Assembly: GCA_036504055.1 (NCBI GenBank)
Contig: DASXVU010000042.1
Coordinates: 1-33,869 of the forward strand
Direction of reading: 5' to 3'
DNA from: Methanomassiliicoccales archaeon
Lineage (GTDB): Archaea > Thermoplasmatota > Thermoplasmata > Methanomassiliicoccales > UBA472
DNA length: 33,869 nt
Shown here piece by piece: positions 25,075 through 30,817 of this stretch (the stretch's first letter is position 1; each line of letters begins with the position of its first letter). A model generated the notes under the pieces. It was not told the origin of the DNA and made no database searches. It saw nothing but the letters and a program-made list of their open reading frames with translations. Both the position numbers and the translations under genes were made by a program.

Positions 25075-25836
25075 TTACTTTTCCGACAGTTCGTGCCAGT
25101 TGGAACCGGGTTCTTCAATGTCCCCTTCGTCCTTTTCCTTATTGGGCGCGATCAGGTTGTTGTTCAGGACCTTCTTCCTCTCCGCCGGGTCCATGCGCTC
25201 TCCGGTCACCATGTAGACGACGCGTTCGCCTATGTTGCATGAATGGTCCGCAATACGCTCCAGATACCTGGCGACCAGGACGTAGTTGATCCCTGCCGTG
25301 ATCTTCTTCGAGTCCTCCATCATGTATGTCAGCATCTCCCGGAAGATCGTGTCATAAAGGCTGTCCACCTCATCGTCCCGTTCGAACAATTCCCTGGCCA
25401 TGACCGAGTCACGCTTGGTGAAGCTTTCGATGGAATCGTGGACCATTTCGACGACCAGCTCTGCCATGTGCTGGATGTTGACCATCCTGGTGAAATGGCC
25501 CTGGGCCTCGAACACCTCGGACACTTCGGCGATGTCGTGGGCATAACGCCCTATCCGGTTCAGATCCTCGATGATCTTCAAACAGGCGGAGACCGTCCTC
25601 AGGTCCCCTGCCACCGGACTGTAGAGGGCGATCAGGTCAAGGCAGTGTTTCTCGATCAGATTGTCGTAATGGTAGAGCTCCTTGTCCAGTCTGTTCACGT
25701 CCTTCATAAGGACGTCGTCACCGGTGGCGATCAGCTTGACCGCCTTCTCGATCGCCTCATTTGCCCGGTCCGACATCTCCCGGACCTCCCGGTTCAGCCC
25801 ATCCATCTCCTGCAAGAACGATATGTTCGAAGTCAT
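25075..25836 (-). CDS. phoU: Phosphate transport regulator PhoU
   Basis: 253 aa, two repeated three-helix PhoU domains. The first has ISFLQEMDGLNREVREMSDRANEAIEKAV and LDKELYHYDNLIEKHCLDLIALYSPVAGDLRTVSACLKIIEDLNRIGRYAHDIAE. The second has FERDDEVDSLYDTIFREML and VARYLERIADHSCNIGERVVYMVTGER. The E/D-x3-D metal-cluster patterns are present. The start at 25836 is one nt after the pstB stop, with GGAGGATGGG upstream. It downregulates the Pst transporter and signals phosphate status. Last gene of the pst operon. Confidence 0.95.
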   Translation of the reverse strand: MTSNISFLQEMDGLNREVREMSDRANEAIEKAVKLIATGDDVLMKDVNRLDKELYHYDNLIEKHCLDLIALYSPVAGDLRTVSACLKIIEDLNRIGRYAHDIAEVSEVFEAQGHFTRMVNIQHMAELVVEMVHDSIESFTKRDSVMARELFERDDEVDSLYDTIFREMLTYMMEDSKKITAGINYVLVARYLERIADHSCNIGERVVYMVTGERMDPAERKKVLNNNLIAPNKEKDEGDIEEPGSNWHELSEK

Positions 25837-25837
25837 T

Positions 25838-26647
25838 TCAACCCATCCTCCCGGTGATATACTGCTCTGTGAGATCCTTCTGCGGATTCTCGAAGATCTG
25901 CTTGGTGTCCCCCATCTCGATAAGTTCGCCAAGATAGAAGTAGGCGGTCTTGTCCGCGACCCTGGCCGCCTGCTGCATGTTGTGCGTGACGATCAGAACG
26001 GTGAAATCTTTCTTCACGTCGATCAGCAGGTCTTCGATCTTGGACGTGGCGATCGGGTCGAGCGCGGAGCAGGGCTCGTCGAACAGAATGATCTCCGGCT
26101 TTACAGCCAGCGCTCTGGCGATGCAGAGTCTTTGTTGCTGCCCGCCCGATAACCCATAGGCCGATTTGTCCAGCCGGTCCTTTACCTCTTCCCACAGTGC
26201 CGCCCGCTTCAGGCTCCATTCGACATTGTCCTTGAGCTCTTCCTTGGTGATCTTGCGGTTCTTCTTGCGCTTCTTGGGATCCTTCTCGTTCTCGTCGATG
26301 GTGTCGATGCCGTGAAGTCGTGGAGCATAAGCGATGTTCTCAAATATCGATTTCGGGAACGGGTTGGGTTTCTGGAACACCATGCCAATGTGCCTTCGGA
26401 CGTCGACCACGTCCACACCCTTGGCGTATATGTCGGTGTCGTCCACCTTGACGCACCCTTTGACCGTGCAGGACGGGATCAGGTCGTTCATGCGATTGAT
26501 GCATCGTATGAACGTAGACTTGCCGCATCCGGAAGGGCCGATGATGGCAGTTATCTCGTTCGCGTTGATGTCCATGTTGACGCCCCGTAGGGCATGGTTC
26601 TTGTCGAAGAAGACGTTGAGATCTTTGACGCTGATCTTGACTGGCAT
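25838..26647 (-). CDS. pstB: Phosphate ABC transporter ATP-binding protein
   Basis: 269 aa. Walker [11 protein letters not shown]-loop VFQKPNPFP (the PstB-specific form), signature [15 protein letters not shown], Walker [14 protein letters not shown] and the H-loop VTHNMQQA are all present. A lysine-rich insertion (about residues 110-135, [19 protein letters not shown]) makes it slightly longer than typical. The ATG at 26647 is chosen because GGTGG lies just upstream; a GTG at 26656 inside pstA is not needed. It powers phosphate uptake through PstC and PstA. Confidence 0.97.
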
Positions 26648-26649
26648 GG

Positions 26650-27510
26650 TTACCACCTGTATTTATCCCGATATTTCTTTCTCAGATAGATCGCGAAGAG
26701 GTTCATCCCGATGACGATGGCGAGGAGGACAATTGCCGATGCATACTGTATCGGCGCCGTCAGCGCCGAGTTCGTCGATTGAGAGGACATGATGTAGATG
26801 TGATAGGGCAAGGCCATGTACGGGCCGAACAGCGATGGGAGGCCTGGCGCCAGCGCCGTGGCTCCCAATGCTAATATGGGCGCCGTCTCGCCGGCGGCAC
26901 GCGACAGGGAAAGGATCGTCCCAGTAAGTATTCCGGGCATGGCATATGGTATGACATGATGCCGCACCGTTTGCCATTTGGTCGCACCAACTGCCAGTGA
27001 CGCCTCGCGGACCGTGGACGGGACGGCGATCAGGGCCTCCCTGGTGGTGACGATGACGACCGGGAGCACCAGCAGGCCCAATGTCACACCAGCGACCAAT
27101 ATGCCCAGGTCGAGCTGGAGGTAGGCGACCAAAAGTCCCAGGCCCAGCAGACCATACACGATCGAAGGGACCCCGGCAAGGTTGTGGACGATGATCCACA
27201 CGAACTTAGCGAAGCGGCTCTTTCCCTGATATTCGACCAGATAGACCGCCCCAAGCACGCCAATGGGGACGGCGAACGCCAGGACGACCAGCATCAGATA
27301 GACCGTTCCCACAATGGCTGGGAATATACCTCCCTGGGTCATTGACCCGCGAGTATCGATCTTGGGCGCCTGCGTCAGGAAATCCAGGCTCAGCTTGCCT
27401 ATGCCTCCGATCAGGATAAAACCGATCAGGATGGCCAGTATCCCGACCACTAACCAGGCGCAGCCGCGGAAGGCCATGAAGTAGAGCTCTTCCTTCTCCT
27501 TGCGGTTCAC
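26650..27510 (-). CDS. pstA: Phosphate ABC transporter permease PstA
   Basis: 286 aa with six hydrophobic segments and the permease coupling-loop motif ([46 protein letters not shown]). Forms the membrane channel with PstC. It overlaps the pstC stop by 4 nt (ATGA at 27510-27507), implying coupled translation. Confidence 0.96.
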
Positions 27511-28412
27511 TCGTAGGCCTCCCTGAACTTCTTAAGGATTACTTCCGCGGCCAGGTTGATGACGAACGTCAGAATGAACAATAGCAGGCCAACGGCAAAG
27601 AGCGCGTTGTAATGTATCTCGGTCCTGGCCACCTCTTGTATGTCCAGGGCGATGGCCGATGTCATGGTCTCCATCGGATTGAAGATGTTGGTGGTTAGCT
27701 GCCGGGCACTTCCGGTGGCCATGAGCACGGTCATGGTCTCGCCTATCGCCCGTCCAAACGATAAGATGATGGCGGCCACTATCCCGGACAATGACGCCGG
27801 GATCACCACTCCCTTGATGGTCTCCCATTTGGTGGCGCCTAAAGCCAACGACGCCTCCCTCAGGCTTCCAGGAACGGAGTTCATGGCGTCCTCTGATATG
27901 CTGACCATAATCGGGATCATCATGATCGATAAGGCTATCGCCCCGACCATGCCGTTGAGGGTCGTCCCGGTGTTGAATACGGCTTGGACAAAATGGGATA
28001 GCACCAGCATGGCGAACAGACCGAAGACTATGGACGGAATACCAGCCAGAAGCTCGATGACCGGTTTGAGATATCTCTTGATGGTGGGGTGGGCCACTTC
28101 GGCCAGATAGATGGTGCAGCCGATGCCGATGGGGATGGCAATGAGCGCCGCCACTGCGCTCGTCAGAAGGGTTCCCACTAAGAGCGGCAGCACGCCAAAG
28201 AAACCGGCGGCGGGGGCCCATTGGGTCCCGGTCAGGAAATCCAATGTGGAGACCTGAGCAAAAAACGGGTAGGCCTGTGTTAATAGGAAAACGAAGACCG
28301 CACCCAAGGTGAAAATGGATATCGAGGCGAAAACCAGAAGTCCCTTCTCTATCAGGAACTCGGTGATCCTCGAAGTGCGGCTGCGGCTACTGGTGGTAAG
28401 ATCCAGGCTCAT
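27507..28412 (-). CDS. pstC: Phosphate ABC transporter permease PstC
   Basis: 301 aa, six hydrophobic segments, and the coupling loop REASLALGATKWETIKGVVIPASLSGIVAAIILSFGRAIGETMTVLMATG. The long loop after the first segment (YPFFAQVSTLDFLTGTQWAP) is typical of PstC. A Shine-Dalgarno GAGGT precedes the start. It follows pstS after a 75-nt gap. Confidence 0.96.
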   Translation of the reverse strand: MSLDLTTSSRSRTSRITEFLIEKGLLVFASISIFTLGAVFVFLLTQAYPFFAQVSTLDFLTGTQWAPAAGFFGVLPLLVGTLLTSAVAALIAIPIGIGCTIYLAEVAHPTIKRYLKPVIELLAGIPSIVFGLFAMLVLSHFVQAVFNTGTTLNGMVGAIALSIMMIPIMVSISEDAMNSVPGSLREASLALGATKWETIKGVVIPASLSGIVAAIILSFGRAIGETMTVLMATGSARQLTTNIFNPMETMTSAIALDIQEVARTEIHYNALFAVGLLLFILTFVINLAAEVILKKFREAYE

Positions 28413-28487: not shown

Positions 28488-29534
28488 TTAATCCCTGGAA
28501 AGCCTAATCTCCGCTGCTTGGATCAGAGAGATTATGCTGTTCCCGCCTTCCATGACTGTCTGGGAAGCGGTTGTGGCCTCCTTGGCATAACCGATTCCGA
28601 CATACCCGATCGCTCCTTTGTTGTCCTTGCATTGCTGGACGATCGGAGCGGTCGAGGAGAACTGCTGCATCGTGGCGCTCGGCAGCTGCCCCATGGTGGT
28701 GTTGTGGAAGTAGTCGTACGTGCCTGACGATGAGTCACGGCCGTAGAGGACTATTGCCTGGTCCTTTCCTCCGACCTGGTTCCAGTTGGTGTAGTTCCCG
28801 TTGTAGATCTGCCTCAGCTGGTCAATGGTCAGCGAGGTGATGCTGTTGTCGCTGTTGACGATGATGGCGATCCCGTCGACCGCGACCTTGAACTCCATCG
28901 GCTGGTAGCTAGGGTCGGTGGTGTTGACAAGCTCGGAGGCCTTTATGGCCCTGGACGCTTGTGCTATGTCGCACTTGCCTTCTTTCAGGTTCTGTATGCC
29001 CGTTCCACTTCCCGGGAAGTTCAGAGAGATGGTTATGCCAGGGTAGTCCTTGGCAAACGACGCCTGCCAAAGGTTCGCCATCTCCAACATGGTGGTCGAA
29101 CCGGACTGCACTATGGAGCCGGTCGATGTTCCGGTAGTACCGGCAAGCTTGGCCTGCATGGCCGCTTGTATGTCAGAGGGCAGTGAGTAGAACCCAGCGT
29201 CACTGGCGTTCTTCTGACCTTTGCTAGTTGTCAGGATCCAGTTCAGCCAGGAGATCTCAGCGCCGGTGAGGGTGGTGACGTTTCCATGGGTGTACAGGTA
29301 CAGGTACCTGGAAATCGGATAGCCTCCGTTCGCGCTGTTATTGGCGTACTCTAATACGGCAGCCTGGTCCAACGGGGAATAGGCGGTCGAGCTCGAGGTC
29401 GCTTTGATCGTGACAATCTTAATGCTTGGCGTTGAATTGCTGCTGTTGTTCGAGAGCAACAGGGCGGCCCCTATTCCCGCGACCAACAGAATGGCAATCA
29501 CCGCCACTGATATGTACATGACTTTTTTTTCCAT
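28488..29534 (-). CDS. pstS: Phosphate-binding protein PstS, apparently circularly permuted
   Basis: 348 aa. An N-terminal hydrophobic helix (about 6-28) without a lipobox cysteine anchors it outside the membrane. The phosphate-binding motifs are present: SGSTTMLEMANLWQ (144 on), FPGSGTGIQNL, DIAQASRAIK, VDGIAIIVN, QLRQIYNGNYTNW, GRDSSSGTYDYF and GAIGYVGIGYAKEA. The order is odd: the segment YPISRYLYLYTHG...GQKNASDAGFYSLP (72-119), which closes ordinary PstS proteins, stands before the SGSTT motif. A Gly/Thr/Ser linker (131-142) joins the two parts. The protein ends soon after GYAKEA. Start supported by GGTGA 7 nt upstream. First gene of the pst operon. Confidence 0.95.
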   Translation of the reverse strand: MEKKVMYISVAVIAILLVAGIGAALLLSNNSSNSTPSIKIVTIKATSSSTAYSPLDQAAVLEYANNSANGGYPISRYLYLYTHGNVTTLTGAEISWLNWILTTSKGQKNASDAGFYSLPSDIQAAMQAKLAGTTGTSTGSIVQSGSTTMLEMANLWQASFAKDYPGITISLNFPGSGTGIQNLKEGKCDIAQASRAIKASELVNTTDPSYQPMEFKVAVDGIAIIVNSDNSITSLTIDQLRQIYNGNYTNWNQVGGKDQAIVLYGRDSSSGTYDYFHNTTMGQLPSATMQQFSSTAPIVQQCKDNKGAIGYVGIGYAKEATTASQTVMEGGNSIISLIQAAEIRLSRD

Positions 29535-29803: not shown

Positions 29804-30817
29804 ATGTCCGTGGATATACGTAGGATACAAAAGACCGGTGCTTCAACGATGACGGTATCGTTGCCTAAGGACTGGATAGACTCGCAAGGTCTCAAGGCCG
29901 GAGATCCGGTCGGGATGCAGTTGATGCCGGATGGCACTGTCTGTGTTGACCCAAGGAGCGATCGAAAAAGGGAACCGACCAGGAAGACCATCCGAATTGA
30001 GAAAGAGGAGTCGGAAGAACATCTCACGAGAAAGCTGATCGGGGCTTATCTAGCCGGTTATAATATCATAGAGGTAAGGTCCAAGGATCGTATAGACCAC
30101 GACATCAAACACGCCATCAAGGACTTTGCGAGGCTCGTCATCGGACCGGAGGTGATCGAGGAGACCAGCAACAGTGTCGTCCTTCACGACCTTTCAGACC
30201 CGGTCGAACTGCCTCAGGAAAAGTGCGTCCGCAGGATGCATCTGATCGTCAGCTCGATGCACAAGGACGCTATGGAGGCGTTCAAAGACGGAGATGTGGA
30301 CATGGCCCACGACATCATGGACCGTGATGCGGACGTGGACCGTCTTTACTGGATGACGGTGAAGCAATACAATCTCATTATCAAGGACCGGAAGCTTGGA
30401 GAGCGGATCGGTGTGGATATCTATGAAGGGATGAACCTCATGCTCGTGGCAAGGGGCATTGAGCGCATCGGCGACCACGCTGAGAAGATCGCCAAGAATG
30501 TGATCATGGCGTCCGATTCCAAGGTGAAAATGGACGGACTGGGAACGATCCAGGAGCTTTCTACAAAAGCGTTGGAAGTGCTTGATAGGTCGATACAAGC
30601 TTTCTTCCTGAAGGACATCGGGTCGGCCAATGCGGCCATAGATGCCGGAAACATCCTCGTCCAGAACCTAGAAAAATTGAGCACCCAAATACGCATGCCC
30701 ACCGACAAGGCGGCGGTGGTGGCAACCAATGTCATCGATTCGATCATCAGGACCACAATGTACTCGATGGACGTTTCGGAGGTTGCGATCAATGGGGCAA
30801 TGAACAAGAAGGACTGA
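29804..30817 (+). CDS. AbrB-PhoU phosphate uptake regulator
   Basis: 337 aa. The N-terminal AbrB/SpoVT-type swapped-hairpin DNA-binding domain (about 1-50: IRRIQKTGASTMTVSLPKDWIDSQGLKAGDPVGMQ) is followed by two PhoU domains (for example SSMHKDAMEAFKDGDVDMAHDIMDRDADVDRLYWMTVKQY and IERIGDHAEKIAKNVI). This fusion is a common archaeal transcriptional regulator of phosphate transport. It is divergent from pstS. The start is ATG 29804 if leaderless; a GTG at 29810 has better spacing to AGGTGA and gives the family N-terminus DIRRIQKTG, so either is possible. Confidence 0.93.
   Translation: MSVDIRRIQKTGASTMTVSLPKDWIDSQGLKAGDPVGMQLMPDGTVCVDPRSDRKREPTRKTIRIEKEESEEHLTRKLIGAYLAGYNIIEVRSKDRIDHDIKHAIKDFARLVIGPEVIEETSNSVVLHDLSDPVELPQEKCVRRMHLIVSSMHKDAMEAFKDGDVDMAHDIMDRDADVDRLYWMTVKQYNLIIKDRKLGERIGVDIYEGMNLMLVARGIERIGDHAEKIAKNVIMASDSKVKMDGLGTIQELSTKALEVLDRSIQAFFLKDIGSANAAIDAGNILVQNLEKLSTQIRMPTDKAAVVATNVIDSIIRTTMYSMDVSEVAINGAMNKKD

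Follow-up and report, generated by a model that had tools for sequence, protein, structure and literature searches.

The DNA analysed here (the window) is a stretch of 33,869 nucleotides from a Methanomassiliicoccales archaeon (assembly GCA_036504055.1, contig DASXVU010000042.1). The genome carries the methanogen gene mcrA, and its sole match to the profile PF12849 is a pstS gene on the minus strand (28488..29534), an intact open reading frame of 348 residues. On the same strand, it is encoded with the permease genes pstC (27507..28412) and pstA (26650..27510), the ATPase gene pstB (25838..26656) and phoU (25075..25932 as the open reading frame is listed; the real start may be internal), so that the complete pst operon described in an earlier note on this DNA is indeed present. 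Divergent from pstS, on the plus strand, lies a gene for a protein with AbrB-like and PhoU parts (29804..30817), which is likely a phosphate regulator. A protein of this type adjoins pstS in most of the related pst loci examined.

The PstS protein is built in the order anchor-B-linker-A-tail, where A denotes the body that normally forms the N-terminal part of PstS and B the segment that is normally C-terminal; we write AB for the ordinary order and BA for the order found here. All parts are encoded on the minus strand. An N-terminal membrane anchor helix (residues 2-29; 29448..29531), recognised from a helix at 2-29 in the structure model, the alignment and the N-termini, is followed by segment B (residues ~36-131; 29142..29429), a flexible Gly/Thr/Ser linker that joins the old C-terminus to the old N-terminus (residues 132-139; 29118..29141), segment A with all phosphate-coordinating motifs (residues ~140-322; 28569..29117), and a tail past the new C-terminus that has low model confidence and is without homology to B (residues 323-348; 28491..28568). 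The anchor is of the type MEKKxMxIAVGVVAI, which is also found in AB and ABAB relatives, and the A body runs from SGSTT to GYVGIGYA. The phosphate-coordinating motifs are GST (145-147), GSG (175-177), SR (194-195) and RxxxSGT (266-272). The GSTT motif (residues 145-148; 29091..29102) contains G145 and S146, and the RDSSSGT motif (residues 266-272; 28719..28739) contains R266, S270 and G271, all of which are invariant in the BA set; ligand motifs are kept across the BA proteins, and most are invariant. The open reading frame, its coordinates and the motifs quoted in the earlier note were all as described, including the intactness of the binding motifs. The note had also recognised that a segment had moved, with an extent (residues 72-119) that has to be revised to ~36-131; the protein, which by the note ends ~28 residues past GYVGIGYAKEA, ends ~26 residues after A.

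The best stretch of PF12849 aligned residues 134-326 with profile positions 3-198 of 267 (142 bits, cut-off 27), and that of TIGR02136 aligned residues 126-329 with positions 28-234 of 295 (209 bits, cut-off 206.6). Both matches stop about three quarters of the way along the profile, so the C-terminal profile part is absent after A. The best PstS chains in the PDB matched residues 129-324, and several of them matched residues ~53-123 again with their own C-terminus (residues 53-123 with 219-290 of the 4pqj chain; residues 54-123 with 255-325 of the 4omb chain). When a profile of 22 BA-ordered proteins of the order was compared with the PDB, A (profile positions 114-293) aligned with residues 3-180 of 4q8r (independent E 1e-52) and B (positions 33-103) with residues 179-249 (independent E 6.4e-12). 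The two matches adjoin in 4q8r. In the window protein their positions are exchanged: B comes before A, against the canonical A-B order, and a linker of about ten profile positions lies between them. This bears out the proposal that the order is B-A, with the breakpoint after GYAKEA. A tblastn search of the window with the A and B pieces found B solely at 29133-29438, with no decayed A upstream and no decayed B downstream of pstS. These comparisons indicate a full circular permutation with no part missing. The window protein appears as a permuted variant of PstS, whose orthology holds through synteny and the tree (see below). Profile-based annotation labels such proteins ordinary PstS, and the rearrangement stays hidden.

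Since the window genome is a draft of 49 contigs, the gene might be an ordinary AB pstS that was rearranged during sequencing or assembly. We regard this as practically excluded, because BA proteins are found in many relatives, some of them with single-contig genomes. The search for it in related archaea that the earlier note had suggested found BA in no fewer than 20 further genomes of the order, among them the single-contig genomes G006 and G042; the G006 protein is 54% identical to that of the window. Further examples come from G002, G009, G010, G014, G043 and G026, and a survey of 147 genomes of the order added BA proteins from another family (f2). Wherever the surroundings of a BA gene were read, it occupies the same pst locus, and the order is kept down to ~28% identity between BA proteins.

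Ordinary PstS (PDB 4q8r, 4gd5; PF12849, TIGR02136; pstSCAB-phoU) has the same segments, binding motifs, operon and presumed role; the window protein differs from it in the BA order, in the anchor being joined to B, and in new termini that would lie in lobe II. In the homologous PhoX, residues 101-251 make up domain II and all others domain I; its seven phosphate ligands run from Ser34 to Asn201 (PMC5439949). The window breakpoint maps to residue ~201 of E. coli PstS, and the correspondence of T10 to Ser34 would put it at ~225 in PhoX numbering, past the last ligand and inside domain II. With this position, A would keep every ligand without a change of order, and the anchor, which is normally on domain I, should join domain II. 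The chain would fold as an ordinary two-lobed PstS with the old ends bridged by the short linker and the new ends placed in the loop of lobe II that follows GYAKEA. Phosphate binding and delivery to PstC/PstA would work as usual with all ligands in A, and the membrane tether would attach to lobe II instead of lobe I. The shift of the tether to another face, which the earlier note had foreseen, is thus supported by homology through the breakpoint inside lobe II, and the structure model is consistent with it.

The AlphaFold2 model of the window PstS, calculated from a shallow alignment of nine rows, had a pLDDT of 74 and a pTM of 0.67; pLDDT was 85-95 over most of A, ~80-92 for residues 81-130 of B and below 50 for residues 48-73. 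B was modelled as strand-strand-helix-helix-helix. The top Foldseek match of the model in the PDB was 4h1x, which is itself permuted (223 columns, TM 0.57 by target; Foldseek is order-dependent). The window protein appears to be a real, functional-looking and naturally permuted PstS. The permuted protein could instead have lost phosphate binding and now serve as a sensor or persist as a relic. This would be consistent with the long branch of the window protein (0.58 changes per column) and the narrow passing of the TIGR02136 cut-off (209 against 206.6 bits), but it is very improbable in view of the conserved ligand motifs of the BA proteins, the intact pst operon and the lack of a second PF12849 match in the genome.

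Using purpose-built A and B profiles, we distinguished four architectures of PstS in the order: AB, BA and the fused forms ABAB (579-594 aa; L009-L011, L013, L014) and BABA (554-563 aa; L033-L037). The ABAB proteins come from the window's own family and the BABA proteins from a different family of the order. At the f1/f6-type loci examined, pstS lies between the divergent AbrB-PhoU regulator and pstC-pstA-pstB-phoU (one locus is cut by a contig end), and it is AB in L179, L180, L189 and L190, ABAB in L178 and BA in L175-L177. At the f2 loci, pstS has the same position, before a long PstC-matching gene, and is BABA in L181, BA in L182-L184 and AB in L185, L186 and L188. The AB, ABAB, BA and BABA genes are syntenic orthologues, not unrelated paralogues. 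The AB, ABAB and BA proteins of f1 have similar anchor sequences, and most f2 BA proteins end right at the breakpoint (e.g. ...YVSIGALKDL*). In f2, pstC and pstA are apparently fused into one gene of ~660 aa (L181-L186, L188), which accompanies AB, BA and BABA alike.

The tandem repeats in these genes were measured by script because their periods exceed the limit of Tandem Repeats Finder (500), which misses them. All five ABAB genes had a period of 819 bp, with ~70-80% identity between the repeats; in BABA genes the period was 786-801 bp. The BABA pstS of the single-contig genome G052 (L037:1315-2976) has a 786-bp repeat in which 760 consecutive bases are identical, the product of a very recent duplication or conversion. 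Two other contigs (L166, L167; genomes G124, G125) both break off within B of a BA-type pstS, at one and the same codon; an assembly broken by an identical tandem repeat would look like this.

A maximum-likelihood tree of A+B (88 units, 282 columns; a smaller set, after MAFFT had put B fragments onto A) needed at least six changes of order, which fits four BA groups and the AB genes L015 and L070 inside BA. The groups for AU tests were picked by architecture without use of the tree, except for the f1/f6 BA clade without the AB unit of L015. Monophyly of all BA units was rejected (A+B, p=0.0045), as was that of the f1/f6 BA clade without L015 (p=4e-4; A alone 6.6e-5, B alone 0.004). A single clade of the f2 BA units was rejected with A+B (p=7e-5) and with A (p=3e-8) but not with the short B part (p=0.10), which leaves room for recombination inside f2. 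A long, well supported branch separates f1/f6 from f2, with AB members on either side. Two or more origins of BA, in f1/f6 and in f2, are well supported by these results; more than two are likely, as is a minimum of one reversal or additional origin around L015. The alternative of one ancient change from AB to BA, later spread over the tree as AB and BA genes recombined, draws on the B part of f2; it appears improbable against the rejection of one clade for all BA units and for those of f2, and against the long split between f1/f6 and f2 with AB members on both sides.

ABAB units branched with AB genes and not with the BA clade, and BABA units grouped with BA, as expected from a later duplication of BA. 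The pattern is that expected from permutation by duplication, seen more than once. A membrane-anchored AB gene would have duplicated in frame to ABAB, and loss of the first A (the stretch from the anchor to B) and of the last B would then have left anchor-B-A. The grouping of the ABAB units with AB genes speaks against this path, as does the lack of any trace of the lost A or B in the window. Fission and fusion, or cut-and-paste of the B segment, could have led to BA without a tandem double-gene intermediate. This would agree with the position of the ABAB units among AB genes and with the result for the window clade, for which no direct ABAB ancestor was found among the tree units; we nevertheless consider it unlikely, as separate A-only or B-only genes were absent from the complete loci and fused tandem forms are common in this order and beyond. 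With permutation by duplication as the preferred route, the gene very probably encodes a naturally permuted (BA) phosphate-binding subunit of a Pst importer, for which we infer the route from ABAB to BA, the fold, the binding and the tether position. We also lean slightly towards the view that the PstS locus of this order is a reversible hotspot, at which AB and BA were interconverted several times via fused tandem intermediates, one being recent enough for its two copies to share the run of 760 bases.

Most natural circular permutations are known from isolated pairs of old age. The presence of AB, ABAB, BA and BABA at one syntenic gene, repeated and apparently reversed, makes the rate, direction, intermediates and folding cost of permutation testable. 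If the hotspot reading is true, the locus would offer a natural experiment in circular permutation with replicates, and a true shift of the tether between lobes would raise the question of whether tether geometry matters for transport by an ABC importer. Permutation by duplication is the textbook model for saposin/swaposin and the DNA methyltransferases (PMC3320104). These share the evolutionary model and tandem intermediates with the window PstS and differ from it in fold, whereas PstS shows several orders at one orthologous locus in one archaeal order.

The window gene is not the first permuted PstS. PDB 4h1x is PstS2 of Streptococcus pneumoniae (SP_2084), whose residues 10-78 aligned with positions 230-293 of the BA profile and residues 78-264 with positions 34-224; it is also permuted, with a cut elsewhere and the order A2-B-A1. 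Like the window protein, 4h1x and its Bacillota relatives are natural PstS permutations in which the two old termini are joined to each other, and the B-A junction of the window type is already present in the 4h1x crystal structure. Unlike the window protein, they are bacterial, and the cut that gives their new termini falls within A, ahead of the RExGSGTR strand. The order A2-B-A1 was also found in the pstS of Monoglobus pectinilyticus (L193:2566-3522, plus strand), which belongs to a complete pst operon, and on gut contigs labelled phage (L194, L196). A search of the open-access literature yielded no paper on a permuted PstS, whether 4h1x or the gut Bacillota proteins.

No single-domain PstS cut exactly between A and B was found among the stronger matches, as listed, from 247 genomes of the phylum of Methanolinea and from 400 genomes of other families of the class, or among the listed hits in plasmid, phage and viral collections. 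PstS proteins on viral contigs had looked permuted by their tblastn ranges (e.g. 38-318) because tblastn joined separate pieces, and profiles gave AB or A only. A search of genome contigs with the window protein alone gave one match, an AB protein of Methanolinea.

Tandem PstS proteins are ABAB or BABA in this order; other families of the class have ABABAB, and relatives of Methanolinea have ABAB. They share their segments with the window protein, adjoin pst genes at the loci whose surroundings were read, and have the form expected by the duplication model; they differ in that each chain has two or three binding domains and is not a permuted singleton. Outside the order, among other families of the class and relatives of Methanolinea, triple (ABABAB) and double (ABAB or repeated A) proteins were observed (L155, L156 with 1017 aa, L157-L159, L209-L212), and the A repeats of L159 are 99.8% identical in DNA. 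Two genomes with BABA pstS (G122, G123) also encode a PstS-like domain in the order A2-B-A1, cut before the hinge strand (L089/L207, L092/L208), and these proteins have hydrophobic stretches after the domain that resemble membrane helices.
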